From assembly GCA_905221615.1 (NCBI GenBank), contig CAJNDT010003079.1:205001-269000 (forward strand): a stretch of DNA of 64,000 nt. The letters are read 5' to 3'. This DNA comes from Symbiodinium sp. CCMP2592 (taxonomy: Eukaryota > Sar > Dinophyceae > Suessiales > Symbiodiniaceae). Positions within the stretch are counted from its first letter, which is position 1, and each line of letters begins with the position of its first letter. Positions 2,951-31,019 of this stretch are shown here, in pieces. The position numbers and the translations under genes are program-made. The notes below the pieces were generated by a model. That model ran no database searches. It was given only the letters and a program-made list of their open reading frames with translations, and was not told the origin of the DNA.

Positions 2951-2971
2951 TTTTGCCGAAGCGTCACCAAT

Positions 2972-2999: not shown

Positions 3000-3004
3000 G
3001 TTGC

Positions 3005-3322: not shown

Positions 3323-3399
3323 TCTTATCTTAATATATATATGTGTTATTTCTTTAGATGTTTTTCTTTAGAAACTATTTTCTTAGACCGAAACAATAC

Positions 3400-3433: not shown

Positions 3434-3436
3434 ACA

Positions 3437-3562: not shown

Positions 3563-3591
3563 TCAATATACAACACAAATTAAGTTTTAAA

Positions 3592-4207: not shown

Positions 4208-4374
4208 TTATACTGTTTAGATTTTTTAACATTTTTCAGGCAAATAATAACTGCTTTTACAAACTCTAATGATAAATAGCAACATCGTTTTACCTTACTA
4301 TCTTTTATTACCTGCGCTTCTACTACTTCTAAACCGTTTATGGTTTCAATATAAGTAGCATAGTTTTCATTCAT
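4204..4374 (-). CDS. 56-residue viral protein, first gene of the minus cluster
   Basis: ATG at 4372-4374, 56 codons, stop at 4204-4206 overlapping the next ATG as ATGA. The product starts MNENYATYIETING. It carries a CC pair near residues 31-32, then a moderately hydrophobic segment (about residues 33-47) and a basic tail. It may be membrane-associated. It faces the ATPase gene across 42 bp, so both promoters must lie in 4375-4416 or within the genes. The exact overlap, ATG start and AT-rich leader support it in spite of its size. Confidence 0.55.
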   Translation of the reverse strand: MNENYATYIETINGLEVVEAQVIKDSKVKRCCYLSLEFVKAVIICLKNVKKSKQYK

Positions 4375-4416
4375 TATATATTTTAATCACATATTTTCTA
4401 GTTAATAATAATTATT
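4375..4416. promoter_or_regulatory. 42-bp divergent AT-rich promoter region
   Basis: Separates the minus-strand cluster from the plus-strand ATPase gene. It is nearly all A and T, with TATAT and TAATAATAATTATT runs. All viral starts in the element are preceded by similar AT-rich leaders. Confidence 0.45.
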
Positions 4417-5184
4417 ATGAGTGAAACGATCCCAACCGTAGAACCAATAGACATACCCGACTACAAGTACAAAAACTCTAAATATGAAATGATGCCCAAA
4501 TTACCCGCTAGGATGTTATGCGTTGCTTCATCAACGGGTGGCAAGACGGTGCTTATCCAAAATCTAATATTAAAAATCTACCGAGACTCTTTTGAAAGGA
4601 TTTACATTTTCTCACCGACCGTTAATGTTGATGACACATGGACGCCCGTTAAGAAATATATAACCGATGTAATGAAGGTTGATACTGAAAAGGAGCAGGT
4701 TTATTATGAAGAATACGACCCTATAGCATTGAAGAAGTTAATAGAAACACAGAATAAAGTCATTGATTTTCAGAAGAAGAATAAACAAAAGGATTTGTTT
4801 AGCATCTTGATAGTTGTTGATGATTTCGCAGATGACCCCAAATTTGTAAGATACTCCAATATTCTTCACGGTTTTTTTACGAGAGGACGACATAACGCCA
4901 TCTCGTGTATATTATCTACCCAAAAATACAATGTTTTAGCACCAATAATTCGCTTAAATGCTAGTGCTTTGTTTATATTCAGGTTGAAGAATATGAATGA
5001 AGTTAATAGCTTCCTAGAAGAAAACAGCGCGCTAGTTGATAAGAAAACACTTTACGATATGTATCAGCAGGCCGTTAATTTTGCTCCTTACTCGTTCTTC
5101 TACATAAACACCAACGCCAAGGATGTTAATAATATGTTTTTCATAAACTTTCAACAGCGTTTTGAAACTGATAATAATCAATAA
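4417..5184 (+). CDS. A32/FtsK-type genome-packaging ATPase
   Basis: 255 residues from an ATG in an AT-rich leader. A P-loop lies at about residues 37-44 (ASSTGGKT), a Walker B at about 130-136 (ILIVVDD), and a conserved RGRHN motif at about 156-160. The last is followed by the STQ motif (about 167-169) that carries the polar residue of this family. Length and motif spacing match the packaging ATPases of polinton-like viruses and virophages, which pump the genome into the capsid. It is the only plus-strand gene of the element, divergent from the small-protein cluster. No frame damage is visible, so it may still be functional. Family assignment is strong; the exact clade needs a tree. Confidence 0.9.
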   Translation: MSETIPTVEPIDIPDYKYKNSKYEMMPKLPARMLCVASSTGGKTVLIQNLILKIYRDSFERIYIFSPTVNVDDTWTPVKKYITDVMKVDTEKEQVYYEEYDPIALKKLIETQNKVIDFQKKNKQKDLFSILIVVDDFADDPKFVRYSNILHGFFTRGRHNAISCILSTQKYNVLAPIIRLNASALFIFRLKNMNEVNSFLEENSALVDKKTLYDMYQQAVNFAPYSFFYINTNAKDVNNMFFINFQQRFETDNNQ

Positions 5185-5205
5185 TATTTTTATGTTTATA
5201 TTATT
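5180..5205. terminator. AT hairpin overlapping the ATPase stop codon
   Basis: 8-bp perfect stem AATAATAT/ATATTATT with a 10-nt loop, between the convergent ATPase gene and the small gene at 5214-5427. Suits a shared transcript end. Confidence 0.45.
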
Positions 5206-5213
5206 AATTATCA

Positions 5214-5427
5214 CTAAAATAATGATACAGGGCAACAGTGTAAAGAAGTAAAATTGAAACAAGGGCATCGCCTTTTCTTTTTTAATGCTTCTACCTTCTT
5301 CTCTTCCATTTCTAACTTATCTAGTAGGTCTTTCATAGCAGTTAATAATATACCTGTTTCGGATACTTCCCTACTTTTCTGTTTTATTAGTTCCATACAC
5401 TTTATACTGATTTTCAAACTCACTCAT
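5214..5427 (-). pseudogene. small coiled-coil viral gene, probably frameshifted
   Basis: A minus-strand frame of about 69 codons ends at 5214 and holds a Lys/Glu/Leu helix followed by a Cys-containing tail (RRCPCF). Its only ATG in frame is internal (near 5396). The ATG in the position and leader context typical of this element is at 5427, reading MSEFENQ, but it hits a stop after 18 codons in a frame one base off. The simplest reading is a single-base indel near the start. The alternative is that translation begins at the internal ATG and gives a shorter protein of about 60 residues. It lies 22 bp downstream of the fibre gene on the same strand. Confidence 0.5.
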
Positions 5428-5448
5428 ATATAACAACATATATTAATT

Positions 5449-7809
5449 CTAATCGCTATCGCTATTATTTTTTACTTTCTTCTTCAACTTTGTTATTTCT
5501 CCTTTAAGGGTGGTCATTTCCTTTTTCATTGCTTTGAATAAATCTTTCATTTCCTCATTTTCTTTAATTTTATGTTGTAAAGCACTCCATAAAATTGGTG
5601 TGGTCATACTATAACCAAACTTTAGATATCCGTCTCTTCCGTCCCTAACGATATTATTCCATTCTTTGGGGAACCCTTTATAATCCATCATATCGTTGGC
5701 AATAAAACCACAACATGACCTATCTCCGTATTTCTTTTCATCAATAAACTTATATGTTTTAGGAACGATGTATTTTACTAGTTCTACTGCTTTTTTAGTT
5801 TCTATCTCTTTTATGTCTTTCTTCAATCTTTGGTCACTGCTAGGGCCAATAGACCCTGTGTAAGAAATGTCACCTATAACATCAATGCCGTCTGTGGTAA
5901 CAGTTAAAGCATTTTTCGTTCCTATTTCGGTTATTGTCTCACCGTCTGTATCTGGATTTCTCAAAAATATTTGTTCCACTGCTCCTACCGCTGTTTGATG
6001 TGTAATACTAAACTTCTCATAGAAATCAACTGAACTACCTAGGACACGAAACTCAGGAGAACCAGTAGCACCAATATCTACACGAAATTCATTTCCGGTT
6101 GATAAATTACCTATTACATCAAGTGTTTCATTACATGTAGTAGGTTTGTTTAATGTAATACCTGCTACATCATTCAATTGTAAATATATTTCTGATGATT
6201 GTTTGTCTGCGCTTCTGTTTGATTGTATTGAAAAATTTTGTTCTATTGTTGAAATGAAATTTAGTGAAAAATTAGCATTTGACTGTTGATATATCCTACC
6301 TCTACTATTGGTTAAGATATTATTGTTAAATGTATTATCACTTCCATTAAATGAACAATTACCACTAAAATTTGAACTACCTCCTCCCGCTACATTTAGT
6401 CTTGTTGCTCCTCCTGCTATTGCTCCAATTCCTAAATTATTACAATATACCGCTCCTCCTGCTGTAGCGGTATTCAATAACAATAACGACTGACTATTGT
6501 TAGAAGTATTATAAGCATTAATATTAAAACTATGTATTTTAAAAAATCCTTGTGCGTTTTTCACTGTTAAAACATTACTTGCGTCTGTTGTATTCTTAAA
6601 CACTTCAATACCATTACCATTTGTTGAAGTTATTGTATCACCATTCATTGTAACATTATTATCAACTTCTAGACTATCTACTTTCGTTGCTCCACCAACA
6701 GATAAAAAATAGCCACTTTCGTTTGCTTTGCCTATCCCTACTTCCGCGCTTGTTAAACTTCCTAATCTCATTCTGTTAGACTTATTTGAAGCACTATTGT
6801 CATTTAGAATCATAATATTTCCATCTCCTTCGTTAGCAGTGGTACATCTTAAATTATTGTTAATATATATCCATTGCGCCGTTCCGTCTCTAATTCGTAA
6901 TGTCGGGTCGGTGTTATTGGATATCCTCCAGAATTGAATACCATTATCAGATACTGGTAAAAATACAGTATCGTTATTGAATATTACTGCTTCATTTAAA
7001 AACACTTGCTGAAAAAATGTTGTTCCGTTCGTTGTATTGTTACATTCAATGTATGTATTTGTATCAGTATCGTCATTAGTTCCGTTGATTAGTCGTATAG
7101 CACTTGCCGTTTCATTGATTGATAAATCTAAAGAAATATTAGATTTCGTAGCGTTTGTATATCTTTCAATGCTTGTATTAGCATCTACTAATTCTATTGG
7201 ATTACTGACACCGCCACCTGCTCCTGCTACTAATGTATCTACCTCGCCCTTATTATAGTAATTGTTTGCTAACTGACTATTTGTTTGGTAGTTTGCTGTT
7301 AGTGTTGCTGTTGTGGCATAAGGTGCTAATGCTGTATTATCTATCCAGTTATTGGCATCAATTTGTGTCTTCGTGTAATAATCGTCATCAAGTTGTGTAT
7401 TGTTTTTGTAGTTATTTGTTAAATTCGCAGTAATGTCATTTATATCACTATAATTATCTAACGCTTTACCATCTACAACAGCAATAGCACTATCAACTTC
7501 TGCTTTACTATAAAAATTTACATTTAACTGTGCCGTCGTTTGAAAATTATTAGTGAGATTATTGTTAATATCGGTAATAACTAAATCTTGTCCTGCGCTT
7601 TGTGCTATGATTGGCGCTAGTTGTGTATCCAACTCTGCTTGTGTGATACCACCACCAGAACCTACGTTAATGTTTGACATTTCATTATCTACATATGTTA
7701 TTGTGGCATAATCCTGCTGTAATGATGACGTGCCTGTCTCACTAACTGTTAAGAACTCAGTAGCATAAACTACATGCGACCCGTCTAATGTTATTGACTG
7801 ATTATTCAT
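5449..7809 (-). CDS. virion fibre protein with S74 intramolecular chaperone
   Basis: 786 residues, ATG at 7809. Residues from about 50 to 205 contain repeated shaft units of the form TQLxxxYYxKxxVD. The middle, to about 640, is a Gly/Asn/Thr/Ser-rich, beta-rich body. From about 655 to the end lies a peptidase S74-type chaperone of the endosialidase class: the cleavage-site motif SSDQRLKKDI, then an alpha/beta core (CCGFIANDM, GYSMTTPILWSALQ) and a trimeric coiled coil over the last 45 residues. In the family the chaperone trimerises the fibre and cleaves itself off at the Ser of SDxR. The protein is probably a receptor-binding spike or decoration of the capsid. It lies 52 bp downstream of the capsid gene on the same strand. 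Frame intact. Confidence 0.85.
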   Translation of the reverse strand: MNNQSITLDGSHVVYATEFLTVSETGTSSLQQDYATITYVDNEMSNINVGSGGGITQAELDTQLAPIIAQSAGQDLVITDINNNLTNNFQTTAQLNVNFYSKAEVDSAIAVVDGKALDNYSDINDITANLTNNYKNNTQLDDDYYTKTQIDANNWIDNTALAPYATTATLTANYQTNSQLANNYYNKGEVDTLVAGAGGGVSNPIELVDANTSIERYTNATKSNISLDLSINETASAIRLINGTNDDTDTNTYIECNNTTNGTTFFQQVFLNEAVIFNNDTVFLPVSDNGIQFWRISNNTDPTLRIRDGTAQWIYINNNLRCTTANEGDGNIMILNDNSASNKSNRMRLGSLTSAEVGIGKANESGYFLSVGGATKVDSLEVDNNVTMNGDTITSTNGNGIEVFKNTTDASNVLTVKNAQGFFKIHSFNINAYNTSNNSQSLLLLNTATAGGAVYCNNLGIGAIAGGATRLNVAGGGSSNFSGNCSFNGSDNTFNNNILTNSRGRIYQQSNANFSLNFISTIEQNFSIQSNRSADKQSSEIYLQLNDVAGITLNKPTTCNETLDVIGNLSTGNEFRVDIGATGSPEFRVLGSSVDFYEKFSITHQTAVGAVEQIFLRNPDTDGETITEIGTKNALTVTTDGIDVIGDISYTGSIGPSSDQRLKKDIKEIETKKAVELVKYIVPKTYKFIDEKKYGDRSCCGFIANDMMDYKGFPKEWNNIVRDGRDGYLKFGYSMTTPILWSALQHKIKENEEMKDLFKAMKKEMTTLKGEITKLKKKVKNNSDSD

Positions 7810-7810
7810 T

Positions 7811-7840
7811 AATATTATTATTATAGAAAATAATAATATT
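7811..7840 (-). terminator. AT hairpin between capsid and fibre genes
   Basis: 12-bp perfect stem (AATATTATTATT) around the loop ATAGAA, filling most of the 52-bp gap after the capsid stop and before the fibre start. It could end the capsid transcript or act as part of the fibre promoter. Confidence 0.5.
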
Positions 7841-7861
7841 ATTTAATGTTTATAAACTTAT

Positions 7862-9457
7862 TTAACCATACACGACGGCACCATCAGAACGAATTTCTAT
7901 CACATTTTCCGAAATGAGATGAACAAATATTTCCTGCATAACTTCATTTTCCGTTAATGTTTTATATGGTTTTTTAATCTTAGCGGTCATCAAAGACCCC
8001 ATCTTAGTATTAATTCCTGTTAGATTTTGCTCATTCATCTTTTCAAATGTTATACCAATAATGAATTTATTCGTTGCGTATTGTTCATAAGTAATACTAC
8101 ATGCGTCTTGGTCTGGGTTCATATATGAAAGCATACGGCGCAAGAAATACATATGTTCGGCGAGAGATTGAGATTCAAATTCAGGATATTTTTTGTTAGC
8201 AATCTGTATCTGCCATGAAATATTATAATTCTTGTCAGCAAATCCATAACCAGCATCATCACCAGTAGCATTAACACCGCGGTCGTTAAATCTTGAGTTA
8301 ATCATAGGATTGTAGAAATAATTAAACCGTTTATTAACGTAGCTGTCGGGTAAATAATAATTGTCTTCTTTTCCGTTTGTTAAATGATTTCCTCGTTGCG
8401 TTCTATAGAAAGTAATGAAAGCACCGTTTAACTTACTTGCCGATTTTACGACATTCATATTAATTTCTGTTCCCGATGCGTTAAATGACTGTGTTATTGT
8501 GTGATACATCGGATAAACAATTTTAAGACTACCACCTTGTAATAAATGACTGGTAATATTATTATTTACGGCACTGTCTAAGGTTACAACTTCTGCTCTT
8601 AAAATGATATTGTTAAGTTGCCATTTTGTCGTAGTGTCTCCTTCAGTAAAATAAGCACCACCTCTATCACCACCGATAGTAGTAGCACTCGCCGTTGTTA
8701 CTCCTTTAATTACTGGTTCATCGGCATCTGATACGATGGTTATTTCAATTTCTAATGGGGCGTATCGCACTGGTAAATAATAGTTGCTTTCCAAAAATCC
8801 ACACTTAAACTGATGCCCGAGTCTAAAATATTCACCTTTACGAATGCCACTGACCGAATGACGAGTATAACGATTGGATATTTTGCCCCATTTGTTATGG
8901 TCGGTATAATCTTTAGCATCTGCTCCTGTTGGTAATTCACCTGCTGTTCTAACAACATCATCATCAGCATTATTAACTCTTACAAATTGGTCTAAGCCAT
9001 TAGCATATTTATGTCGCCAGTCGTCGTCCCATCTAGGATTAGCGCTACTTTCTATATCGTCCATATGACGCGCTTCAACCGATTTAAAACTGTTGTATAA
9101 CTCACAATGTCTATTATATTGGTCAATGTCTTGAACTAACTGACCTCCTACCGTACATCTATAACGATTGAAAAATCCATGTAATCCCGTAAGTGGTCCT
9201 AAGAACTGAGTATCGGTATCACCGTCGTTTTGAAGATTAGCAAATAAACGAAGACTTGATAAATCTAGATAAGTTCCATCTTCACCTGTAACATAAAATC
9301 TAATATTTTTGTTCCCCGTGGCGCTCGTGTAAATATTACTACCTGATGGAAAATAATTAACGTGTCGTCGGTCTGTTACATACTGCGCGGTTTTAGGCAA
9401 TCCAAAGTCTAAGGCTGGACTCATGACATCACTCGCTTCTGCTACTAAATTATCCAT
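7862..9457 (-). CDS. major capsid protein, probable double jelly-roll
   Basis: 531 residues, ATG at 9457 in an AT-rich leader. Length and composition (Asn, Tyr, Asp and beta-strand-forming residues) fit the double jelly-roll capsid proteins of polinton-like viruses. Features I associate with that family are an early LRLFANLQN strand followed by the FLGPLTGLHGFFNRYRC segment, GGQLVQDIDQYNR, a central YYLPVRYAPLEIEI strand pair, and a late FYRTQRG...FYNPMINSR segment. The assignment also rests on linkage to the packaging ATPase and fibre. No stop or frameshift is seen, so the copy may be young or selected. It would build pseudo-hexameric capsomers of an icosahedral particle. The penton protein gene is not seen. 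Confidence 0.8.
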   Translation of the reverse strand: MDNLVAEASDVMSPALDFGLPKTAQYVTDRRHVNYFPSGSNIYTSATGNKNIRFYVTGEDGTYLDLSSLRLFANLQNDGDTDTQFLGPLTGLHGFFNRYRCTVGGQLVQDIDQYNRHCELYNSFKSVEARHMDDIESSANPRWDDDWRHKYANGLDQFVRVNNADDDVVRTAGELPTGADAKDYTDHNKWGKISNRYTRHSVSGIRKGEYFRLGHQFKCGFLESNYYLPVRYAPLEIEITIVSDADEPVIKGVTTASATTIGGDRGGAYFTEGDTTTKWQLNNIILRAEVVTLDSAVNNNITSHLLQGGSLKIVYPMYHTITQSFNASGTEINMNVVKSASKLNGAFITFYRTQRGNHLTNGKEDNYYLPDSYVNKRFNYFYNPMINSRFNDRGVNATGDDAGYGFADKNYNISWQIQIANKKYPEFESQSLAEHMYFLRRMLSYMNPDQDACSITYEQYATNKFIIGITFEKMNEQNLTGINTKMGSLMTAKIKKPYKTLTENEVMQEIFVHLISENVIEIRSDGAVVYG

Positions 9458-9468
9458 TATTATATAAA

Positions 9469-9640
9469 TTAGATTAGATATATTATTTTTTTATATTTCT
9501 TTTTGTTTGATGCTTCGGGTGGCAAAATCTTTCTCGATTTAATATCATTATTGTTTATAATAATTTGTTGCTTTTCTTCTAACATATCTTTTATACTATT
9601 ATAATCTTTTTTATTAATATCATTTTGTATTATACTGCCA
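9469..9640 (-). pseudogene. truncated viral gene, C-terminal remnant
   Basis: A minus-strand frame ends at 9469, only 12 bp before the capsid start, and runs rightwards as about 57 codons rich in Asn, Lys and Ile, with a KILPPEASNKKKYKK basic tail. At about 9638 the AT-rich sequence stops abruptly, GC-rich sequence begins, and the frame meets a stop at once. The 5' part of the gene has therefore been lost. Position next to the capsid gene would suit a minor capsid (penton) protein or maturation protease, but the remnant is too short to say. Confidence 0.6.
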
Positions 9641-17459: not shown

Positions 17460-17742
17460 AGTAGTACTAGTGGTAGCAGTAGTAGTAGTAGTAGTAGTAG
17501 TAGCAGCAGCAGCAACAGTAGTAGTAGTGGTAGTAGTTGTAGTAGTAGCAGTAGTAGCAGTAGTAGTAGCAGCAGCAGTAGCAGCAGTAGCAGTAGCAGC
17601 AGTAGCAGCAGTAGCAGTAGCAGCAGAACCAGGAGCAGGAGGATGAGCAGGAGCACTAGCAGAAGCAGTAGCACTAGCAGTAGCAGCAGCCTTGGCAGTA
17701 GAGGCAACGGTGCGGTAGCGGTGGCAGCAGCAGCAGCAGCAG

Positions 17743-17781
<39 letters not shown>

Positions 17782-17940
17782 CCACAGTAGTAGCCGCAGT
17801 AGCAGCACTAGTAGTAGCACTAGTAGTCGTAGTAGTCGTCGTAGTAGTAGTAGTAGTAGTAGTAGTCTTAGTAGTAGTAGTAGTAGCAGCAGCAGGAGTA
17901 GCAGCAGTAGCAGTAGCAGTGGCAGTGGCAGTGGCACTAG

Positions 17941-17979
<39 letters not shown>

Positions 17980-17990
17980 CAGTAGTAGCA
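17460..17990 (-). repeat. (AGT/AGC)n array downstream of the LINE
   Basis: AGT, AGC and GGT triplets on the plus strand, so (ACT)n in the sense of the LINE. It starts about 135 bp past the LINE stop codon and may be its 3' tail or its target. Confidence 0.9.
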
Positions 17991-18125
17991 TTCATTCACC
18001 ACGCAGCGAAGTGTCCGAGTTCGCCTAGCGAGCAGACAGCAACCGGGTGTTCCGGTGGCTGGAACCTCTTTTGGGTTCTGGAGGGCAGTGCCAGCTCCAT
18101 CGACTAAGACTACACTTGCTCAGCA

Positions 18126-18940
18126 TCAGGCACCAGGAGGTAGTACCTGACGTAGCCACACTATATATATGTTGTCATCGTGTTCTGTACTGACTGGCTT
18201 TGCGTTGCAGGAGTCATCAGTGATCCACCACTTTTCTGCTCCAAACAGCGGTTGTCCTCGTAAGATAGTCCTGTAATGCCCCATATCAGGAGTGGCCCCG
18301 TAGTGAAGCTGTACAGCGACGACCTGGTAGTGGACATAGCGAACTTGCATGGTGTGCAGACCTGTAAAGAGTGGCATACGAACTGTAGTCGAGGCCACGA
18401 CCAGTGGTCTGGTGTCCCTGCGCATGACTCCCTCGGCATTTGTGAAGCGTTGAAGTTGTATACAGAGCATGGGAGACGGATTCAGCAGTGCATAGCGAGC
18501 TGTAACCTGAGCACTCCACCCATCAATGGCTGCTTGGAGCTCCAGACTTGGACCTACCGGCAGCGCAATCGGAATGGGAGCTTGGGTAGGCCCCTTGTCA
18601 AGAGTGGCAATACCTCCAGGTACAAAGTTTCGGGCCTCCCAGCCACCATTGAACCCACTATGCGAGAACCTGGGTAGAAGATATTGCAGCAGTTCAGCTG
18701 CATCGTGCTGACGATGCACAAAAGGCCAAGCTTGCAGCAGCATGAGCCACGGTACCGAGTGGAGTACCTGAATGGGGCAATTGGGCGAATCAGTGATTGG
18801 TGGGCACAGCATGGTAAGAGCCTGCGGTGGAGGCGAGATGTAGGCATCATGTAGCCTAGCCTGAAGGATTGTCCACAAAAGGGCATAGATGGTAGAGTGT
18901 AGGTAGCACAAATTCGATGGATTGTGGAAAATCAATCGAA
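18126..18940 (-). CDS. USP-type (C19) ubiquitin protease domain at the LINE C-terminus
   Basis: About 265 residues ending at a stop at 18126. The Cys box reads NPSNLCYLHSTIYALLW, with the presumed nucleophile codon at 18906-18908. A QQDAxEFL-like box reads RQHDAAELLQYLL (about 18676-18715). An LxIQLQRF box precedes the core strands. The His box reads HYGATPDMGHYRTILR (about 18266-18310), and WWITDDS (about 18205-18235) fits the Asp box, followed by a terminal YIVWLRQV strand. Order and spacing follow ubiquitin-specific proteases, though the domain is shorter than usual USPs. It probably removes ubiquitin from element or host proteins, or processes the polyprotein. Its frame is open upstream, but the domain preceding it is in another frame, so a frame change lies near 18950. 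Confidence 0.75.
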
Positions 18941-18967
18941 GGACAGCCTTGAGACTAGGGCGCACAC

Positions 18968-19963
18968 TCAGTATGGCATCTGATGTTGCCACACTTCCTG
19001 GACCAGGGTGTCGTAGTTCGGCCGATCGCGGCGAAGCCTGCAGCCCAGGGTGTGCCACGATGCCTGGCCGATCCACTGGTTCAGCGTGCTCCACATGGCT
19101 CCTCCCTCTGGGCGAAGGGACATGCAGATCTGGAACTGAATCCAGTCGGAGGTCACCTCCGTGGTGAGCTTCCTCATGGACTTGAACCTCACCAGGGTCT
19201 CTTCCGTAACAGCCTTCCTCATCTGAACCAGTTGGGCCAGCAGATCTTCCGCCGGTATTGGCCTCACTGAGTTGTCGACTTCCAGACATTGTTTGGTAGG
19301 ATTCCATGTAAGATGTTTCCAATGTTTCTGATCGTCGATCCAGTTCAGGTTCTTGGCTTTGGCGAGAGCATCCTCGTCCGCAATCATGTTGGTCAACCTC
19401 TGGTGTAAGGTGATGAGCAGCTGCTTGAAGAGCATGAGTTTGAGGGAGTAAGTAATCTTCTCGGGTTCTTCCTCTTTCATCTTCCTCCACTTCTCCGCTG
19501 CTTCGCAGAGAACCGGTACCATCCCTTCTGGCCCTGAGCGTACAAAGAGGTAGAGGACCAGGTCCTGACGGATGGCTGAGATGATTTGCTCCTGACGAAG
19601 GACCAGCTGGGATAGTCGATTCATCCTGTACTCCATCCAGTCTGGATCGTGATTTCCCAGTGGCTGCAGGTCCTGGGTCTGTGTCCAGGGATTGGGTGGA
19701 TGGCTTCCGAAACCATTTGTGTAGCCCGTGACCTGGTTGGCACTGGATGGACTTGGTAGGCCCTGCTTTCCCTTGCCTTTGCCCTTGGTACCCTTGCCCT
19801 TGCCTTTGTTCCGGTCCTGCGGAGCCAGACGCTGCCTCTTGGATTGCTCGGTTTGATGCAGCACATCTCGTCGTGGTTCCTGTTCCCGTTTGACCGGACC
19901 GGCATGGGCCCAAAATTGCTTCTCCTGTTCGTCCAGCTCCATGGGATCCGCGCAGAGTGTCAT
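18968..19963 (-). CDS. Gly-Lys-rich linker and helical domain of the LINE polyprotein
   Basis: 331 codons in a frame different from both neighbours. The first 75 residues are charged and end in a GKGKGTKGKGKGKQG linker that would bind nucleic acid. About residues 100-330 form a helix-rich domain with well-spaced Leu, Trp and charged residues (HDPDWMEYRMNRLSQLVLR, KITYSLKLMLFKQLLITL, WKHLTWNPTKQCLEVD). This composition is much more protein-like than the overlapping frame. It is probably the segment between the last zinc finger and the USP domain. The ATG at 19963 need not be used. Function unknown; I recognise no named family. Confidence 0.65.
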   Translation of the reverse strand: MTLCADPMELDEQEKQFWAHAGPVKREQEPRRDVLHQTEQSKRQRLAPQDRNKGKGKGTKGKGKGKQGLPSPSSANQVTGYTNGFGSHPPNPWTQTQDLQPLGNHDPDWMEYRMNRLSQLVLRQEQIISAIRQDLVLYLFVRSGPEGMVPVLCEAAEKWRKMKEEEPEKITYSLKLMLFKQLLITLHQRLTNMIADEDALAKAKNLNWIDDQKHWKHLTWNPTKQCLEVDNSVRPIPAEDLLAQLVQMRKAVTEETLVRFKSMRKLTTEVTSDWIQFQICMSLRPEGGAMWSTLNQWIGQASWHTLGCRLRRDRPNYDTLVQEVWQHQMPY

Positions 19964-21905
19964 GGTGCACTGCTAGAAAGGCGCAAATGTGCAAAACATG
20001 ACACTGTTTCCAATGACGATCTTTGTTGATGTTTCGCTGATGACAGTATCGACATGGTACAACAGTATGTCGGCGGAAGCCAGTAAGAAGCTTGAGAGTC
20101 GCAGGTTGGCATTCTTTCCACTCTGGATGTTGCATGGTGAGATGATACTTGATGCTGGTAGGAGTGGCTAGCCACTGGTAACACAGCGGGCAGTGGTGCT
20201 GGAGGTACGAGTAGGTCTCCGGTTTCACAAGGAGGTCAGTCCACCTGCGGGCACTTAGTGTCTCAAGCACATGAGATTGCTGATATAGAGGAGCAGCCTC
20301 GTGGCTCGGCGAAGTGGAGCTATCCTGCAGGAGAGCATCCAAGACAGGGGGTTCAGGTATGTCGACAGGAGCAGGCGGGGGCATAGCAGCCTGGTCGTTT
20401 GACAGGATGTGAGTCTCCGGAGGCAGATCCTGGGGTGGCAGAGTAACCGGGTCAGGGACTGGTACAGGATCAGAGTCATCAGAACTCGGAGCCAAGGGTG
20501 GGGCAGCAGCAGGAGGTTGTGTGGCAAGTCTACGAAGTACCTGACACCGATTGCGTTTAATGTGCTTAACGAGGCCATCCCATTGTCGAAAGGGATGGGC
20601 ACAGTGTCTGCACGTTGGAAGTCCTTCTGTTCCATGTGCATACCTGTCAAAAGGCACCGAGACAGCAGCAGGTGTTTTGAGGCCATGCCACTTAGCCTCG
20701 TGAGAGCGGAGGAGTCGAAAGGAGGTAAAGACCCGATGACATTCCTGGCACTGATGTACAGCAGGATCTGTGATGCCTTCTGTGTCCCCAAGAGGAACCT
20801 GCCATTGGCGTTGCACTTGGAGGTGAAGTGTAGCGGCAGTGTCTCGAGCTGATTCCACCTGGGCTTGGGTCACGAAGCTCGTTTCAGTGCTCAGGCGAGT
20901 CAGGCTACGATGCAAGGCAGCGGCTTCCCTCTGTAGGTGCTCCAAAATGGTGGACAAAGAGCATCTGTGTAGAAGGTCCCGTGTGGATTCTTTCTGAAGA
21001 TGTGCAAAGGATCGTGTGATGGCTCGAACCTGCTTGGTCATCATGTGCTGCATTCGCTGTATGTCCTTGGCACCTGGGTTAGATGCTGCGATACCATAGA
21101 GCAGCGTGGGAAGCACTGTGGATGTCCATAGACTGAGACGATGCGTCTGAGCGAGATGCCTGGTGGAGCACAGTACACCACGGAGTCTTTGCCAGGCCTG
21201 ATTCGCAGCCTGCAGCCGGTAGGTGACTGCTTGTTTGGCCTGTGAATGGTAGGAGATACGTATGCCTAAGTACGTGTGGTGGTCACGCAATGGAATTTCA
21301 TACACTGTTCCTCGTGGGCTGCGAAAACGTAGGAGATCCCCCTCGGGTTTGGGTATGAGGTGTCGGCGCAGCCAGCCTCGGATGAAACTGCCCTTGTGTC
21401 TCAGTAGCAATGCTGATTTGGCCGAGTTGATGACCATACCATGGGCCGCAAGGGCATCGAGGATCTTACTAAAGCGATACACCATGTCGTCCAGCTCACG
21501 AGTGTTCTGCACAGTATCCTTGAGGTGTATATCATCAGCATAAATCGTGGAGCATTGCTCTAGCCAAGGGGCTGTGAGAAGCGGGTCCCCTTCAGCAAGG
21601 ATCTCACGATATATCTGTGCTAGGGCGAGTGTCCAGAGCAACGGAGCCAGTTTACACCCTTGTCTAAGTCCTCTTTGGGCCTCCACCTTGGCAGTGTGCC
21701 CAAGGTGAGTAAGGACATAGGAGATTTCAGAGTGCCAGGACATGATTTGGTGTCTGAGCTCAGCCGGAACTTCGGACGCTAGTAAAGCCTTGTCCAGCAG
21801 GCGCCAGTCCATGAGGTCAAAAGCACTGGAAAGGTCCAGCGACAGTTGTGCACCTGCAAAGTGTGGGCAGGGTTTCGGCTGTTGTGCGTGACGATCAACA
21901 ACCGT
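19964..21905 (-). CDS. LINE reverse transcriptase (palm to thumb) and C2H2-like fingers
   Basis: In this frame RT resumes at AGAQLSLDLSSAFD (motif A, about 21815-21860), continues through GLRQGCKLAPLLWTLA (motif B, about 21630-21675), reaches the catalytic YADD at 21531-21542, and proceeds to a thumb-like helical region. Then follow CQECHRVF...HEAKWH (about 20680-20750), CRHCAHPF...HIKRNRC (about 20545-20620), CPLCYQWL...HLTMQH (about 20125-20195) and CRYC...HWKQC (about 20000-20060), all nucleic-acid-binding finger-like motifs. Fingers after RT are common in LINEs. The frame stays open to 18126 but loses protein-like composition after about 19975. The RT is inactive here because its N-terminal finger motifs are missing. 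Confidence 0.8.
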
Positions 21906-24900
21906 AGGTGTTGAAATCGAGCAGGTGAAAGTGGTCGCGGAATCTTGGGAACAAGAGTCAACCATGCGCTTCTCCAAAGCTCTGGTATTTGAGGCCATTG
22001 CCGGCACCATTGGCACAAGAGAGGCGCAACGAGGTCCGAGGTTAGCCTCCATAGAGAGTTGGTGGCTAAGTTCGGAGGTGTAGCTTTATGCGGTGACAAT
22101 TGCGAAAGCGCCAGGGTCATTTCGGCCTCCGTGACTTCAATGTGAATGGGCTGTCGCTGGGGACCCTGTATGCTGCCATCCTCGTCCGCAGCATACAGTT
22201 TGCGATAGTGCGTTTCTAACTGTTTTAGCTGGGTCTTGGGATCCTGCAGATGTCCGCCAGAATCTCGCAGTTGAACCTTCGGCTTGGAGGATTTGGGAGC
22301 TAAGGTACGAATGCCAGCATATAGCTTGCGAGAGTCGCCTGAGCTGGCAGCAGTCTGGAGTTCCTGTAGTCTGCCATGGAACCAGTGCTTTTTGGCTTCT
22401 TTCCCGGCACGACGAAAGGCCTTGTGTGCCGTCTTGAAGTGATGGTAGCACCTGGAAACATAGAGCGGATTATGCTGAGCTTGAGCTTTGGCTGTCTTCC
22501 AGACTCGGTAGGCCTGCCACATGGAGCGAATGCCATCCTGCATAGGCGGTGTTTGCCATAGTGCCAGTCGATGCTGTCCTGCGGGTGGCGGGAAGAATTG
22601 GGAGGCACAGTGGATCAGAGTGTCATGCAATTGCCCAAGATCATGAACCCCTGGTAGGGACGCCTGGACAGCAGAGCGTAGACTTTGAACTCTCGGGTCC
22701 CAGGTAGAGCGGCAAACCTGAATCAGGCCCCAATGGTCCCACGCCCGTTGTGGTGCCACCGATTTGTTAAGGGTGTGGAAACGCTGAAGCGGGATGCTGG
22801 CCTTCAGTGGCAGGTGATACCCACCAAGTCTCCAGGCAGCCAATCCCAGGCGGAGCGGTCTCGCCTGCCTAGCACGATCATCCGCTTGGCTGGAACGCAT
22901 GATGATATGATCGATAAGGCTAGCACCTTTGTTGTGATGGTATGTAGGGCCAGCCGCCTTGCACCACGAGTTGAGGTGTAAGAGGGAAAAGTCCTCTACC
23001 AGGTGCTGTAGCCTTGCCTGATCTGGCGGATGTGTGCTCGTGCTGGTGCCTGAACAGATCCTGGTGCCGGCTGCAGCACACGGCTTGATCTGAGTATTAA
23101 AATCTCCAAGCATGATCACTGTGTTTCGGGCAGGCAGAGCTGCCAGGATCTTGCCAATGCACTCCCAGACAGCTAAACGTATGGTTTTCGAGGATTGCAG
23201 TGCGAGTGGATGAGAGTTGTGCGGCTTTTGATAGATGTGCAGCAGGTCAACTGCCCATTTGTCGTGGAGTATCCTCAAGTGTTGCACCCTGCCCGGTTGA
23301 GGGTCGGCGTAAACAATTCTGCAGTTGCGGGTGGCATTCTTATTGAGAAGAATCAGAAGCCCAGCAGATTTGTTGTCTGTGGTTGGGGAGGTGTACACGT
23401 CCCAGGTAGCAGTGGGGAATGTTGGCGCCACCTTGTCCGTCCAATGGGTTTCTTGGACACACACGATTTGGGGTCGTTCGTCAGGTGGCATGTTTTCAAG
23501 TGTCAGCAAGAATTCCTGCCACAGGGCCTGGGACAAGCCTCCAGCATTCCATGAGAGGAACAGCAGGCGTCCCTGGGAAACTTTCAGAGCGGCCTGCTGC
23601 ATGCGACGCTCAGCCTGAGGGGCGGGTCGATGGCCCCGATAGCCCTTGCAGAGCTGTTGCAGGGTACAGATACGACCGCGATAAATCGTATGCTGGGCCT
23701 CGTCCTGTGCAGCACGACGTAGGGCACGTTTGTAGGATCGCTTCCTGGCAAATGTGTGCGCATTTGTATGGACGGTGGCCTGATTGAGGGTCGCTGAGTG
23801 ATGTGCAGCTGTAGGATGCAGGGGGTGTGCAGATGGCACTCCCCAGATCGACCTTGGTAGTGCAAACAAAGTCGAGAGGAACAGGATGGGGCGAGGGCAT
23901 TGCCTGGGGTACGGCGTCGTGCCCGGGGTCTGGCTGGGGCAATACGTAGTCGACGGAGGGCAAGACCTGTCAGCAGTGTGGGTTGATCGAGTGGCAGGTG
24001 CTAGTGTTTGTACTCCAGGGAAAGGCCTCCGAGAGCGAGAAAGGCCAGGAGAGGTAAGGTGTAGAAGTGCTGGAGCCCGGATGGCAACGAGGCGAACAGG
24101 GAGACCCTGTTTGTAGAGGAAGAAGTACCGGGGCTTGGACTGCAGTGGAACATATCCTAGCAGCAGCTTGTCCAGGCTGTTCGGCACTCCACAGGGGCCT
24201 GCAGTCTGATCACCCGGACCAGCCCACGATGAACAGATGACTGAAAACGGAGTGGAGGTCAGGCTAGGAGAGCAGGCGATGCCTAGAGTAACTCCTAGGT
24301 CAAAGCATGTAGTGTGGTTTTGTGGGGGGTCTCGCAAGACTGCCCTCACAGCAGAGTGTAGTTCATTGGGCTCCTGCCACGGCTTCCCGTCCCCCACCAC
24401 GAAGGTGAGTTTCGGTCTCGTGAGCGGGTGGCAGCCGCTCACAACCCTCGCCCCTACCGACTGTTCGGAGGCTAGATGGACAACCAGCGGGTGTCTGGGA
24501 GATAACAGGTTGTCAGCCGTATGAAAAAGTCGGTCTCCGGAATTGGGACCGGAGTGGCTCAGGGCAGGTATGTTGAGATTATGAGAGAGGCACTTCGGGA
24601 TGCCAGTTGTCCATGTTGTCAGAAATGCTGGCATCGACTTCGAAGGACGGTGCAGCAGTTCATCTACACATCTAATCCATAGTGTGCAGATCCAGGGCCG
24701 GAGGGGAAACCTTGGGTTGCAACGGCTCGGCAGAAACTGACTCACGGGATCTGATCTTGTTGGTCTGCGAGGTGCTAGTTTGTTGCATGCGGGTGGCATA
24801 GGGGGTGCTTCTACGATATTCAAGCCGACACCACTCACAGCATGGGTCCGCCAGACGATAGGCCAGCCACGTGCCCGGGATGTCCTGCACGAATTGGACA

Positions 24901-27900
24901 GGAACATATCTCGAGGTGATGTCTGCTCAATCCGCTGGCCTGCGCCCAATGGCGAAGACAGACCTGAAGGCAGGCTAAGGGAACCGCGAGTTGGGATTAG
25001 CAGCCGCTTGGGGGCGACAGTCTCGAGATCTGAGAGCCCGTCGGGTTGCAGACCAGCTCCTGGTGGTGGAGGTGGACACCGGACCGAAGCAGGTCCAGCA
25101 GCAGATGGTCTGGTGTGTCGAAGGCACACCAGGCAGTGTTCAGGTCTGTCAGTCAGGAAAGCGTCTGGCCACCCCTGCCAGGTGCGATGGCTGGAGCAAT
25201 CATTACGAGAGCAATAGGCATGCAACGGAGTGGGGCCTGTTGCCAGTGCAGCTGACATACCTCGAGGCACGACACAGCGATAGTGAACACGGTGTGGGGA
25301 GGCACCGTAGTGCCATGTGATCCCGACTGGCATTGTCGTAGATGTGCACACCGGACGTTCAAGGCCTGGATGGGTACATGGAAAAGAGCTCAGGTGCCTT
25401 TCAAACCCCCAGTAGATTAACGAAGGGACCTGCAAGGAGTCGGGCGTGCCGGCGGGCATCCGGCAGGTCGGGAGATACAAGCCTGATGGCCCCAAGTGTT
25501 GCAGGCAGTGACTGGTGGAAGGAGCAACGAAGGTTTGTGAGCAGGGAACCCACCCAGGTGGCTGCTCGATCCTAGGTGCAGAGGTCTGCAACTCCGAGCA
25601 CTCAGTAAAGCGATCCCTGCCTGTGTCATCCTGGTTTGGCGAAGCCGCCAGTAGGCCAGACCTTAGGGGAGCGAAGACATGAAGCTTGCCCGATTGATGG
25701 GAGGAGAACATGTGTGCCTTCAGGCAAGACTGACTATGCCGATGCAGACGTGGACATGATGAACAGCAGGCTGGATCCTTGTATGCTGCACTGGGTGAGG
25801 CCGCTGAGTCCGAGTGAAGTCCAGCGGCTCTATTGGCCTGGAAGATTTCTTCCATTTTCTTGGCCATCTTCTTGCGGACGCGTTCTTGGTGCCTCGCAGC
25901 TTTGGTCATCCCAGTGCCACGGCCTTTGGCTGCGGTTGAGGAGGTCGTAGGTGGTGGATCAGCCGGGTTGTCCGTGACGTCAAACCAAATCGATCGTCTC
26001 GGCTTGGGCCGTGTCTGCATCCTCCTTGGTTTCGGAGAGGAAGCATCAGATCGAACCCGTTTGGGTCCTCGTTGAGGTGGATCTGATGGGTCGGCCAAGG
26101 TAGCAGCCGAAACCATGGTCGGAGCATTAGGAGTCTCCGAACTATGTGCTGTGGCCGATCGAAGGACGAGATCTCCTGCCTGTATGGTGAGCTTCGCTTG
26201 TGCAGGTGTGCAGTCCTTCTCAAGTTCAGAAGGGATGTGTGGCAGGCGACCACGAGCTTTGGGTGTCGGCTTGAGTCGGCCTTTGTCGTCGATCGCAGGG
26301 TCAGGCCGCGAACTGGAGCTGGGCAAAGGTCTGGAGGAAGCAGAAAGTGCCGCAAAGTCCACAGCCTGTATCAAAGCACTGCTTCGCCGCTTGGACTCTG
26401 TGAGGCAGGGGTTGGCCTCACGAGCAGGCGTCCATGTGGCCTGCACAGCAGTTCCCTCAGGCAGCATGTTCTCGGAGCGCACGGAGAGCCAGAGGGCCAC
26501 CAGCTCCACCGACTCAGCACTTTGTATAACCTGATCGGTACGCTTGCCATGTTTGTTGCTCCCCGAGGGAGCATACACCACCTCCCACTTGGCAGCCCAA
26601 AAGAGACCATCTCCACATAGTGGTATCCATCGCATGTAGTTCTCCACCTTGTGTTGCAGGCTGTCGCGGTGCAGATACACCCCTGGACAGCCTGCCAGGA
26701 ATCTGTCGCCTTTCGACTCGTCAGTGCTCGGGAGAAGTTGGCCATGGTAGATGATGGAGTAAAGCGCCTCCATCTTACATCCGTGCCAGCCCCTTAGCCA
26801 GCCATCCTGACACAGCAGCTCGCAGTGCCATGGATCCAGTGGTGTCCACGGGAGCCTCCACCAACCATCAGGTTGCGGGACTGGGTCTCCGAGTAGGGTG
26901 GCAAGAGATGTGCCAGTGGGGCCTTGCCGTGTCCCGAAGAAGCTCTGTAGAAACCTCTCCACATCCAGGGTACAAGCAGGAGCACTCGGCGGTTGGGGCA
27001 GCTGTGTCCTGGCCTTGGCCCCCCAGATCAGTACCCGATCTGGAGAGGCAGGTAAAGCATGGTCGGCCAGGTTCCATTCAGAAGGGCCACCAGAAGATCG
27101 GGGATCAAAGGCCGGAGCGGGCTTCCTCTCTGTAGTAGGTGTCCCTGTAGCTGTGGCAGAAGCTGAAGACTGAGTCGTAGAGCTCGTGGTGTTCTGCGGA
27201 GCATCGCTGGTGGGATGCTTTCTCATCCTCTTGGGAGGAGGCGGACTCGGAGTACGAGGTTGGGGAATCGCAGTCTTGCCTCGCCTGGGCTTGGTGGGTC
27301 CAGTCTCCTCTTCCCTCGGAAGAACCAGGGCAGGCCGAGGTTTGCGCCAGGTCACCTGCTTTGTCCCCGGGTGGTAGTAAAAGGGCCGATCGCTAGCTTG
27401 GTCAACGTGTTTTTCCCAGGGTGCCTCAAGCGTAGCATCTTCCACCGGGGGATGGATATAGTGGCCAGCTGGATTCCGTTTGGGTGCCGCCGGAGGCACC
27501 ATGGTCTCCAGGGCCTGATAGCCGAGGAGGTATCGGGCGCTGTAGATGGTTAATGGTGGGGGAGCACATCTCCACCTCAGACTCGGCTCCATTCCATCAC
27601 ACATGGAAGCTTGTGTGGCTTCCAACCCCAGTCGGGGAGCGAGGTGCTCCTTGTCGATTGTAAAAGTACGACGTTGTTCATCCCGAGGGCCTTGTATGAT
27701 CCGCACATTCCGCGTAGTGTTGCGGTCACACTCCAAGGTAGGGAGCACAATCCCTCGGCGGCCGACGAGATGACGTCTGTGACCGTCGATCACCTCTACT
27801 TCAGTCCCCACTGTAAGCGGGACGAGTGCCGCCTGCCACTGCGGCCGGCCAGGCTCGGAGGCAGGCTCCATGATCCCTCGAAGGGCACAGGTGGGGCTCG

Positions 27901-28599
27901 TTATGACAGGATAGTCCCTTGACTTAAGAAGTTGAGGGGATGATACCTGCAAGTATTCGGCGAGAGGTCTCCCAGCCCTAAGGGAAGCAAGAAGGTCGGA
28001 AGTAGTGGCAGTCAACTGTAGGACCCCATGCTCTACCAAAGTCATCAATGTGTCTTGGTTTGTGGAAAGCTGCAGACACACGCGACAACCACATGGTGGG
28101 GCTGCAGAATGCATGCAGGAGCACGGCAGAGTCTCATGTTGGCTGGTCACGGATTGCAGCTGCAGATCTGAGATCCAAGCCCCATGGTGGGCAGGGAGAA
28201 CACCAAAGTGGACGTCTCGAGGGTCCTGAGACCTGTGGCAAGCAGCGTTCGACAAAGGTATGCCAGGTGCAAATGGAGGGCACCGCTGACCTGGAGCCTT
28301 CGCGAAGTCATTGGAGTCTGCCATGAGGTCGGCCTGGGCAGTGCAGTCAGCATAAAGGATAGTCCAAGTTAGCAGTGACAGCTGGCTCCAAGGTGGTGTC
28401 AGTACAAGTGCGCCGACAGAGACAGCACGTCTTTTGTGAGTCCCATTCGAGAGGCTGCTGGGCACAAAACAACAAGTCTGCATACAGGAAGAGACGGCAG
28501 AGAGCTGACAGCTGTCAGGTGCACCTGTAGTGCAAGCTCTGCAGAAAGCTCGTGCCTGGCCACTATAGAACCTGTTGTCTCGTGGCTCAGCTCGGTGGC
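21779..28599 (-). CDS. LINE polyprotein central part: gag-like, WW, ART-like, APE endonuclease, RT start
   Basis: A very long frame whose meaningful part begins near 28600. Landmarks: a Cys-rich segment (FCRAC...CMQTCC, about 28470-28570; CGCRVC, about 28070-28100); a KOW/SH3-like segment (about 27640-27825); a WW domain with both Trp and the YYH centre (about 27335-27425); an ART-like region (WHGCKMEALYSIIYHG to AAKWEVVYAP, about 26560-26800); a Lys/Arg helix (about 25820-25930); a CSSC...H...H finger (about 25690-25775); and an APE-type endonuclease at 22890-23570 with LSWNAGGL, CVQETHW, LGDFNTQ and SLIDHIIM. RT starts with LTLVPKIPRPLSPARF and then loses frame near 21880. The endonuclease residues expected for nicking are present. 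The 23800-25650 part is open but of doubtful composition. Confidence 0.75.
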
Positions 28600-29150
28600 C
28601 TAACCGTAAGCGTGAAAGTCCAGCCCGCCACTTTGGTAGTGATAGTGGCTGGCTGCTGTTGTGCAGGTCCAGCTGGTGTGCCCGAAACTCCCTCTGCTGC
28701 ATTGACACTCGGTGCTGGGGGTGCAGTCGGAGGAGGCAGCAAGGTCGGAGTAGGCGATGGAAGCGTAGGAACAGTTCCCATTGCGACAGTGATAGGCCCT
28801 GTGCTTGGTGGAGCACCCGCTGGTAAGCCTCCTGGAGCCATGGCAGCGAAGGCCTGCACCGGTGTTGTCGGAAGAGACGTGCAGGATGCTGGAGTCGGTG
28901 GAGGCGGCCCCACGGGCTTACTTTTGGCACATCCAACGCTTCCGCGTGGCCTATTGACCGGCACTGGAGGAGGAGGTCCTGCTGGAGCACTTGTGGTAGC
29001 AGCTGGCGGAGCGGTGGCCTCCTCGCCCGAGCTCGGTGGGCTCGGTGGGCTATCAGATGAAGAGGTCTCCGGAGCCACCGTCGCTTTGGCCTTAGGCCTT
29101 CCAGATCGCGACCTCGATGGGTTGCCTCTCCGTGCTTCCTTGGGGGACAT
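28587..29150 (-). CDS. LINE N-terminus, Ser/Pro/Thr-rich
   Basis: 187 codons from an ATG at 29150 (MSPKEARRGNPSRSRSGRPK). A basic RS/RP-like start is followed by an acidic Ser/Pro segment and a long Pro/Ala/Thr linker. It ends at a TGA at 28587, just where the Cys-rich gag-like sequence takes over in another frame, so it is probably the true N-terminus of the polyprotein with a frameshift near 28590. The overlapping reading of the other frame (Leu/Arg/His-rich) is not protein-like here. Confidence 0.55.
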   Translation of the reverse strand: MSPKEARRGNPSRSRSGRPKAKATVAPETSSSDSPPSPPSSGEEATAPPAATTSAPAGPPPPVPVNRPRGSVGCAKSKPVGPPPPTPASCTSLPTTPVQAFAAMAPGGLPAGAPPSTGPITVAMGTVPTLPSPTPTLLPPPTAPPAPSVNAAEGVSGTPAGPAQQQPATITTKVAGWTFTLTVRPPS

Positions 29151-29514
29151 CCTGGGCTGAGCGGGCTATGCGACAGCGAGGCTTGAGCACAGAAGGCGGC
29201 GCTCGGAAACAGCTGCTCTGAAGTGCACCTAGCAACTGGCCACAAAAGTAAGGGAAGCTGCAGATGCTGAGAGCCGGACCAATCACACGGACTGGAGGCT
29301 GTCCAGTTGGGACTCTGTAGCACAAAGTTTGAGCCCTGTTGCCATGGTGGGGCAAGTGGGAACAGACAGGCAAGAAGCGCAGCCATCATGCAGCCTACAG
29401 CCGTGTTGAGGTTGAGGCACTCGTACCTTCTAGTGCACCCGTTACTGTTGGGGTGGCAGGGTCCCGCTGTTTCGACAACATCTCTCTTTCTCATCCTGGC
29501 GGAGCCAAGGGGCT
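29151..29514 (-). other. probable LINE 5' leader
   Basis: 364 bp between the candidate start codon and the (AGT)n array. No gene is supported. A plausible 5' untranslated region. Confidence 0.35.
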
Positions 29515-29700
29515 TAGCAGTAGTAGCAGTAGTAGTAGTAGCAGTAGTAGCAGTAAGTAGTAGTAGCAGTAGTAGTAGTAGTAGCAGTAGTAGTAGTAGT
29601 AGTAGCAGTAGTAGCAGTAAGTAGTAGTAGCAGTAGTAGTAGTAGTAGCAGCAGTAGTAGTAGTAGTAGTAGTAGTAGCAGTAGCAGTAGTAGCAGTTGT
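29515..29700 (-). repeat. (AGT/AGC)n array upstream of the LINE
   Basis: AGT with AGC interruptions, including a duplicated block of about 60 bp containing AGTAAGTAGTAGTAGC (at about 29550 and 29615). Same triplet and same strand as the array at 17460-17990. Confidence 0.9.
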
Positions 29701-31019
29701 TGTGGTGGTTAGGGGTAGTGGCAGTGATTGCGGTTGCGGTAGTGGCAATAGTAATGATGATAGCTGTAATAGCAGTAGTAGCAGTAGTAATCTAATAGGA
29801 AAGGCAGAAGTTGCGGTGCAGACAGCCGCTGTGTCAGATGGCCAGTCAACATCGTCCGTGAGGAAGAAGGACATTCCGACTCAGCTGGATGTAAACCCAC
29901 GACACCAGAGAGCCAAAAAAATCTCTTTCCGGTCCTAGAAGACGCTCCCCCGCGCTGGCCTTCCTCTGCCTCCGACACGCAAGGCACATTCTTTGGCCGC
30001 CCATCCTCCGACAGTGCGAGGCGGCCGACCTGGGCGTGAAGATGTGGCGTTCGGCTCAGTCTTTTGATTCTCGTCTCGCCATATCGAGCGCAGTTGAGAG
30101 CCGAAACGATTCTGTCAAGGTAAGATCGACAACCTGGCCTGACCTGGCCTTCAGGTCCGGGCACAGAGAAACCGAAGAGTAAGAATCCTCCATAGCACTG
30201 TTGGGCACAGACTTACTATCATGCAGCTCCTTCTGGGTCAGACCCTCACGATAAGCATCCCCAAAGCCAACACCTCTTGAAGAATGTCAAACCGCTCTTA
30301 ACAAGACACAACTCTAGGAAGGCACTCTAGACTTTACAAATTGGTCCCGGCCACTCGAGCGCTGAAGGAGCGGCTGTCAAGCCTGATACAGGGCCAGTCT
30401 CGGCAGTCGTTTGGTCTTTTCTTCGTTGTGGCCGACAGCCTTTGCAGAATCCACGAGTGGAGGGGCTGTTTCCCGACATGCCGAAGTTGCACGTGCAGAG
30501 CGCAGGCGCTGTGAAGCCCCCGCCTTTGGCTGCTCTTCAAAATCTCGAACTGGAAGCCTGGTTCACAAGACAAGCCTGCCTGGAGACTGAGTCACTCCTA
30601 GGCCCCAGGCCATCTGCTGCCGGGGTGCTTCCATGCATTGTGCCATGCGGAGTCTTCAGGCGCGTTCCGCTCTCGTAGACCCACTGACCGCCCGGAGGCA
30701 GCACCGGGGTGACACCACGAGCACCTGCCATTCGAAAAGAAGCAGCAAGCGAAGGACATGGCAGATCTCGCACACTGCAGCGAGGAAATCCAATGGTCCA
30801 ATGCCCTTCGCGCTGGGCTGACTACGAGGACCCTTCCTGAAGAGTCGCAATGCCATTGCCCCGAGCCAAGAATGCAGCCCAATGACCCGGGCCCTTCACC
30901 TCTGTCTCCAGTCGGCCCAAGGCATCGACGAAAACCCAGTGCCGTGTCAGCATTTGGACGGTCTCCTGCCAGGTACACTCTTGCAATGGAAAAACCGATC
31001 ACAATCAACATGTGTGCAT
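29701..31019. other. no supported gene
   Basis: Degenerate GT/GGT repeats to about 29790, then ordinary sequence. Overlapping short frames at 30598-31024 on both strands cannot be told apart by composition. Confidence 0.3.

Follow-up and report, generated by a model that had tools for sequence, protein, structure and literature searches.

A LINE of the dinoflagellate Symbiodinium sp. CCMP2592 has a coding region that ends in a domain of the ubiquitin-specific protease type (USP, C19). The element lies in a window of 64,000 nucleotides (the whole stretch of DNA that was analysed here), and our data support the fusion of a USP to the LINE polyprotein. The fusion is found in many families and on a single frame, and the USP is inherited together with the reverse transcriptase (RT) and is under selection. 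A further-reaching interpretation, to which we give a probability of about 0.55, is that dinoflagellates harbour a large and old LINE clade, active until recently, which encodes a cis-acting deubiquitinase of its own, linked to the RT by a tether whose residues would be unimportant. The DNA of this tether also holds a nested conserved gene, ORF M, which would start from an ATG of its own, in an overlap predating the divergence of the families. One RNA would give both the giant polyprotein with RT and USP and, via an internal start or spliced-leader addition, M as a separate protein of a new type.

A USP domain at the end of a LINE polyprotein

The LINE copy, about 11.5 kb long, probably occupies 17991..29514 of the minus strand, with its ends placed where (AGT/TAG)n trinucleotide arrays start. 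The flanking (AGT)n arrays (17460-17988 and 29515-29697) match in unit and run in one orientation on both sides, and this microsatellite may be a target of the LINE. All features given below are likewise on the minus strand. The N-terminal part is a stop-free frame of 2670 codons (21779..29791), which contains a WW domain (27338-27430; Pfam WW, E 2.7e-6) and an APE-type endonuclease (22892-23557; Exo_endo_phos, E 2.8e-7). After the WW domain in this frame, at 26660-26803, the stretch WHGCKMEALYSIIYHG...PGVYLHRDS resembles ADP-ribosyltransferases by eye and had no Pfam match. A further stop-free frame of 1319 codons (18126-22085) holds the RT domain (21387..21848; RVT_1, E 2.2e-15, with YADD at 21531-21542) and, C-terminally, the USP (18126..18941; 271 residues and the stop; Pfam UCH, E 1.1e-7). 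Between the two lie four zinc-finger-like Cys/His clusters spanning 20001..20750 (20685-20750, 20544-20612, 20127-20192 and 20001-20054) and a tether of 331 residues (18972..19964) rich in Gly, Ser, Arg and Pro, a composition that would be that of a flexible linker. The order of the polyprotein is N-terminal region with the WW domain, APE endonuclease, RT, zinc fingers, flexible tether and USP. Across 14 distant relatives the Cys and His residues of all four clusters vary hardly or not at all (the window was matched to them by eye); C2H2 Pfam matches to the window's clusters stay below the cut-off.

The element has the LINE-type RT and APE endonuclease of a non-LTR retrotransposon, both recognised by Pfam, and a profile of alignment A3 matched LINE-1 ORF2p (1.3e-40) and an R2 protein (7.3e-13) among PDB sequences. 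Its copies are dispersed: M was found full-length, at 93-100% identity and in an unbroken frame of 334 codons, in 39 places including that of the window, a count that does not separate retrotransposed copies from duplicated chromosome segments. Because these 39 places hold near-identical, unbroken M, the family looks young and has probably been active recently. The copy in the window, on the other hand, is probably dead, because a piece of the RT upstream of the RVT_1 match is absent. At this point, about 22085, the frame breaks, so that endonuclease and RT are no longer read in the same frame (judged by eye against P0001). No further relatives of the LINE were found elsewhere within the window. 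At 4402-9490 it holds an AT-rich island (34% GC) with virus-type genes. They include one for a packaging ATPase of the Pox_A32-like type (1.1e-13) and one for a protein with a C-terminal S74 chaperone domain (1.5e-9); a third product, of 542 residues, is capsid-like by eye and has no Pfam match. This island is possibly an integrated Polinton-like virus.

The profile match, the predicted fold and the ordered boxes all bear out the original prediction that the LINE coding region ends in a USP. The profile search that it had proposed gave 32.1 bits to UCH (PF00443) for the domain alone and 25.5 bits within the whole frame, against a cut-off of 23.9. Relatives scored up to 59.7 (L011), 55.2 (L033) and 53.1 bits (L010), and some (P0066, P0052 and P0045) fell under the cut-off. 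The domain had been placed correctly, except that a start at 18940 is one base out of frame and runs into four stops; the correct start is 18941. The Cys, His and Asp/Asn boxes follow each other in USP order (NPSNLCYLHS, RQHDAAEL, QLQRF, GHYRT and WWITDD), and we take the catalytic residues to be Asn7 (18921-18923), Cys12 (18906-18908), His222 (18276-18278) and Asp242/243 (18213-18218). These are indeed intact, as had been claimed. The accompanying claim that other parts of the copy are broken holds for the missing RT piece, and not for the stretch from the zinc fingers to the USP, which is a conserved overlap.

An AlphaFold model of the domain, based on an alignment of 23 sequences, had a pLDDT of 90.6 and a pTM of 0.90. 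In a Foldseek search of the PDB this model gave 280 matches at E <= 0.001, and all of the 50 listed are USPs, among them USP30, USP4, USP12, USP46, USP2 and Ubp8. The best match among those listed was USP30 (2.0e-13), and TMq ranged from 0.60 to 0.73 over the 50. The predicted structure is that of a USP fold. When the profile of the same 23-sequence alignment was compared with PDB sequences, it matched LINE-1 ORF2p (1.3e-40) as well as USP12, USP2 and USP46 (3e-13 to 9e-13); the window's sequence used singly matched weakly, with USP46 as the best hit (E 0.024). Zinc-binding CxxC pairs in the fingers are common in USPs, though not universal. The window's USP is short and differs from the many that have such fingers, as no CxxC pair was found in its 271 residues.

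In an alignment of 43 USP segments of relatives, the catalytic Cys was kept in 35 of the 41 rows with a letter, the His in 36 of 39 and Asp243 in 37 of 37. Ser stands in the Cys column of four rows (P0090, P0027, P0011 and P0080), whose matches start late in the profile, and we took these as edges of gene models. P0023 (Ala/Lys) and P0031 (Phe/Tyr) have other letters at Cys/His and fall in one RT group, so that one related lineage seems to have lost the catalytic residues. This lineage, P0023, P0031 and their relatives, has M in the overlap and a diverged USP. Over 12 pairs of loci dN/dS was 0.10-0.27 for the USP and 0.02-0.08 for a stretch of 430 codons from the RT part, and the USP evolves under purifying selection. 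Between the window's USP and those of seven fetched copies of the same family there are 1-34 nonsynonymous and 7-64 synonymous differences. All seven copies have kept the Cys and His boxes; in L037 the USP is 13 codons shorter.

A protein search with the window's USP returned 14 relatives, several with an RT on the same protein; one of these, P0003 from Symbiodinium sp. CCMP2592, shows full identity across 79% of the window's USP. With the RT part of P0006 as the query, 72 relatives were obtained, for 23 of which precomputed Pfam lists UCH. Our own USP profile matched 42 of the 72 at E < 1e-3, a few of them weakly, and found no USP in the other 30, some of which may be short gene models. For 29 elements the tree of the RT agrees with that of the USP (Mantel r 0.82; 0 of 5000 permutations), and therefore the two parts have travelled together. 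Since gene models can mislead, we examined the DNA. There are 148 UCH matches in the window's own genome, and the 20 loci with the longest open frames among them, chosen for that openness, were fetched. All 20, on 20 contigs, encode RT and USP in a single unbroken frame that runs for 2243-3229 codons inside the fetched piece; some of the stop-free frames among the loci thus exceed 3000 codons. The search for further joint RT and USP frames suggested beforehand was thus answered positively, in these loci and in proteins of other records. L012-L014, L018/L028 and L017/L027 are near-identical copies, and therefore the 20 represent fewer than 20 independent families. L033 shows the same arrangement. 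A search of genome contigs gave one distant RT locus, L001, with no match to USP or M, and no relatives were confirmed in viral contigs.

The other UCH loci inspected (L005, L009 and L030-L032) are of a different kind, with the USP at the N-terminus. They share this USP with L034, at the same locus as L005, where a frame of 1631 codons (57-4949; C1007:44300-49300 of the own genome) has an N-terminal USP (UCH, 3.4e-24), Helitron_like_N (6.4e-7) and helicase-type domains; a Helitron-like nature was confirmed for L034 only. L030 has two USPs of the N-terminal type about 3 kb apart. In L010 (2-9688) a Copia-type RVT_2 (1.2e-23) stands upstream of the LINE endonuclease, RT and USP in the same stop-free frame, either as a chimera or as an in-frame neighbour. 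In one tree, computed on a comparison set that lacks a proper set of host USPs, 49 LINE USPs group together with one USP of the gene model P0012 (support 0.74). Outside this group fall two further USPs and five from other frames in which the USP is N-terminal, one of these frames being Helitron-like. P0012 has a partial LINE USP and, after it, another USP-like domain of a different kind (residues about 1240-1433), which stands beside P0045 in the tree. The earlier proposal that the element captured a host deubiquitinase is supported in part by this tree, in which the LINE USPs appear as a group apart.

The overlap between ORF M and the tether

The DNA that encodes the tether also contains ORF M, which was absent from the original prediction. 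M (18968..19963) has 331 codons and a TGA and is read in the +1 frame relative to both RT and USP. Its ATG (19961-19963) stands three codons after an in-frame TAG (19973-19975), and the same Met begins all 13 aligned M sequences (12 picked from 38 homologous proteins, and the window). The own genome contains 122 matches to M, and in all 20 longest-frame loci it lies in the +1 frame to the USP (E 1e-17 to 1e-33). To five relatives the identity of M is 52-66%, compared with 30-38% for the tether encoded by the same DNA. Within the overlap, 12 pairs gave a dN/dS of 0.04-0.21 for M, while in the RT frame dN exceeded dS in all 12 (ratio 1.4-5.5). It follows that M is the selected protein and that the residues of the tether are nearly free; the changes by codon position fit M alone in three stretches. 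As judged from sequence, M is a conserved overlapping gene of about 330 residues. We also considered decay by a frameshift in the middle of the protein and rejected it, as M is in +1 in 20 of 20 loci and the RT frame is open in 18 of 18.

M came nowhere near the cut-off of any Pfam family and had no match among PDB sequences (best E 0.35). Its predicted structure had a mean pLDDT of 56 and no Foldseek match at E <= 0.001. A basic KGKGKG stretch suggests that M could bind nucleic acid.

In proteins of other records, a pairwise test covering 9 of 32 rows asked how long a tether and a separate M protein could share one coding DNA. The uninterrupted runs were 123 residues for the tether of P0006 with P0084, 112 for P0017 with P0093 and 97 for P0015 with P0082, against 20 residues or fewer in the other-frame control. 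For P0014 no long run was found in this test (14, control 10). Tests for M on protein sequence only, in distant relatives, were mixed. With a single sequence several relatives scored above their shuffles, and with a sharp M profile most distant relatives did not. A softer profile, tried afterwards, gave 25 of 30 proteins a score reached by none of 200 shuffles (USP-less controls, 0 of 12). The scores of the others were reached by one shuffle for P0047, P0052 and P0058, by four for P0060 and by 76 for P0076; as to position, P0062 scored equally in the other frame and the match of P0053 was in the wrong place. The case for the overlap therefore rests on the DNA tests.

Along the window's tether there are 0 stops in 331 codons, compared with means of 10.6, 11.3 and 20.2 under three nulls in which M was recoded synonymously; none of 5000 draws was stop-free in any of them. 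Using the 122 M matches, we picked 18 loci with unbroken M (31-100% identity) blind to the RT frame. None of the 18 has a stop in the RT frame along M, a length of 276-339 codons for which shuffles predict 6.5-11.7 stops and 0-1 of 500 draws were stop-free; the third frame has 6-19 stops. For the 20 longest-frame loci and the window, 0-6 of 1000 draws were stop-free. Overall, the RT frame is open across M in 39 of 39 loci, 20 of which are open by choice. On the simplest reading, stops are kept out of this drifting tether because ribosomes would have to cross it on their way to the USP, which would thus be translated in a single chain with the RT. The USP follows M in the RT frame in 16 of the 18 loci chosen by M, behind a stop in one of these, L045. 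It is in another frame in L042 and L046, and in L006, which bears a stop, M and USP have no frame offset. We infer that L042, L045, L046 and L006 are decayed copies.

Dinoflagellate mRNAs receive a spliced leader (PMC12014239). In the window, one sequence, a tttctag ends 9 bases before the ATG of M and is a possible acceptor. A search of the window for a relic of the spliced leader gave three matches with three mismatches each, where 2.1 are expected by chance.

Possible roles of the USP and of M

From the sequences and the predicted fold, the most likely function, which we rate at roughly even odds, is that of an active deubiquitinase that is tethered to the LINE polyprotein and acts in cis on the element's own complex. 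It would strip ubiquitin from the LINE's own protein/RNA complex, or from partners at the target site. The complex would thereby escape proteasomal removal until target-primed reverse transcription ends. M would be a separate protein that aids the same retrotransposition cycle, perhaps through nucleic-acid binding by its KGKGKG stretch.

The main rival, with a clearly smaller share of our confidence, is that the deubiquitinase acts on proteins of the host that serve chromatin, repair or replication where the element inserts, and opens or tunes this site for integration. Being on one chain with the endonuclease and RT, the USP would be delivered to the target, and the authors of the Ginger paper propose a role of this kind for the Ulp1 and OTU domains of transposons (PMC2836005).

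For M itself, introns could switch translation out of the RT frame, through M and on into the USP, so that M would be a domain of the polyprotein. The public gene models P0001, P0002, P0003 and P0005 join the three parts in this way, and on the window's DNA the junctions of P0001 fit GT-AG borders. Such introns would, however, be merely 25 and 47 nt long, and retrotransposition of a spliced RNA would presumably strip them. Splicing would not require the unspliced frame to be open, as it is in all 39 loci, nor does it sit well with the single Met at which all 13 aligned M begin. We regard splicing as rather doubtful, and M as a separate overlapping gene remains the reading that we prefer.

It had also been suggested that the USP might process the polyprotein, cutting the giant chain into its working parts. 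With stop-free frames of more than 3000 codons, processing would be useful. USPs cut after ubiquitin-like tails. Pfam scans of the polyproteins revealed no ubiquitin-like domain, and an LRGG-like site was present in 0 of 6 proteins, with one LRAG in the N-terminal frame. For these two reasons processing is disfavoured and seems unlikely to us.

Even less probable is that the USP persists solely to bind ubiquitin and catalyses nothing: the catalytic residues are changed in one lineage, yet Cys, His and Asp are retained in most others and the Cys and His boxes in 7 of 7 fetched copies of the same family. Finally, the USP part could be an assembly join or a host gene next to the element, the latter being an outcome that the original prediction had named as refuting it. 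Both can be set aside as having a negligible chance, since all 20 loci, each on a contig of its own, repeat the arrangement, as do proteins of other records.

Relation to known mobile elements and significance

In agreement with the original prediction, which knew of no described LINE with a USP, we recognised none among the papers listed by full-text searches of an open-access library. The combination of RVT_1 and UCH on public proteins is already visible in precomputed Pfam, so others may have noticed it. We file the LINE with a USP domain as an extension of the known set of mobile elements with ubiquitin-type proteases.

Dualen elements carry an OTU-like protease. Dualen/RandI elements are LINEs with two endonucleases and an RNase H (PMC4640811). 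They resemble the element described here in having an APE endonuclease together with extra domains. The fold of the protease differs, and Pfam detected no RNase H in the window's element and its relatives. Some non-LTR elements of the Utopia/NeSL type have an Ulp1-like cysteine protease in the polyprotein (PMC4640811), which is likewise a protease domain for ubiquitin-like proteins. There it is Ulp1-like and N-terminal and accompanies a restriction-like endonuclease, whereas here a C-terminal USP fold accompanies an APE-type endonuclease; the scanned frames of the window's element gave no Ulp1 match at E <= 1.

Another parallel is SymbioLINE-Dnmt, a group of Symbiodinium LINEs with a cytosine methyltransferase and a Ka/Ks below 0.2 (PMC5890265). 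Both cases involve, by inference, the same genus, the uptake of a host-type enzyme and purifying selection. In SymbioLINE-Dnmt, however, the enzyme is a DNMT that is mostly found in an ORF upstream of the RT, in contrast to the C-terminal USP described here, and the words ubiquitin, protease and USP are absent from the main text of PMC5890265. No DNMT was matched by Pfam at E <= 1 in the scanned frames of the window's element. Among other mobile elements, Ginger1 transposons end in an OTU or Ulp1 domain, and transposase_11 occurs together with Peptidase C19 in a protein of Trichomonas (PMC2836005). These too have ubiquitin-type proteases, one of them a C19; they are DNA transposons and not LINEs. 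The Helitron-like element at L034 in the same genome is likewise a mobile element with a USP. It differs in that its USP is N-terminal, is accompanied by Helitron_like_N and a helicase, and falls outside the group of LINE USPs (as L005, the same locus).

Part of the control of retrotransposon proteins is generally attributed to their ubiquitin-dependent removal. A deubiquitinase fused to the RT and under selection in many families makes an arms race between element and host directly testable. In addition, an out-of-frame gene of about 300 codons is nested in the pol frame, with one frame conserved and the other only kept open, which makes the overlap of M and tether a clean natural case of overlapping genes. 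Annotators are warned that public gene models cut such loci with possibly false introns.
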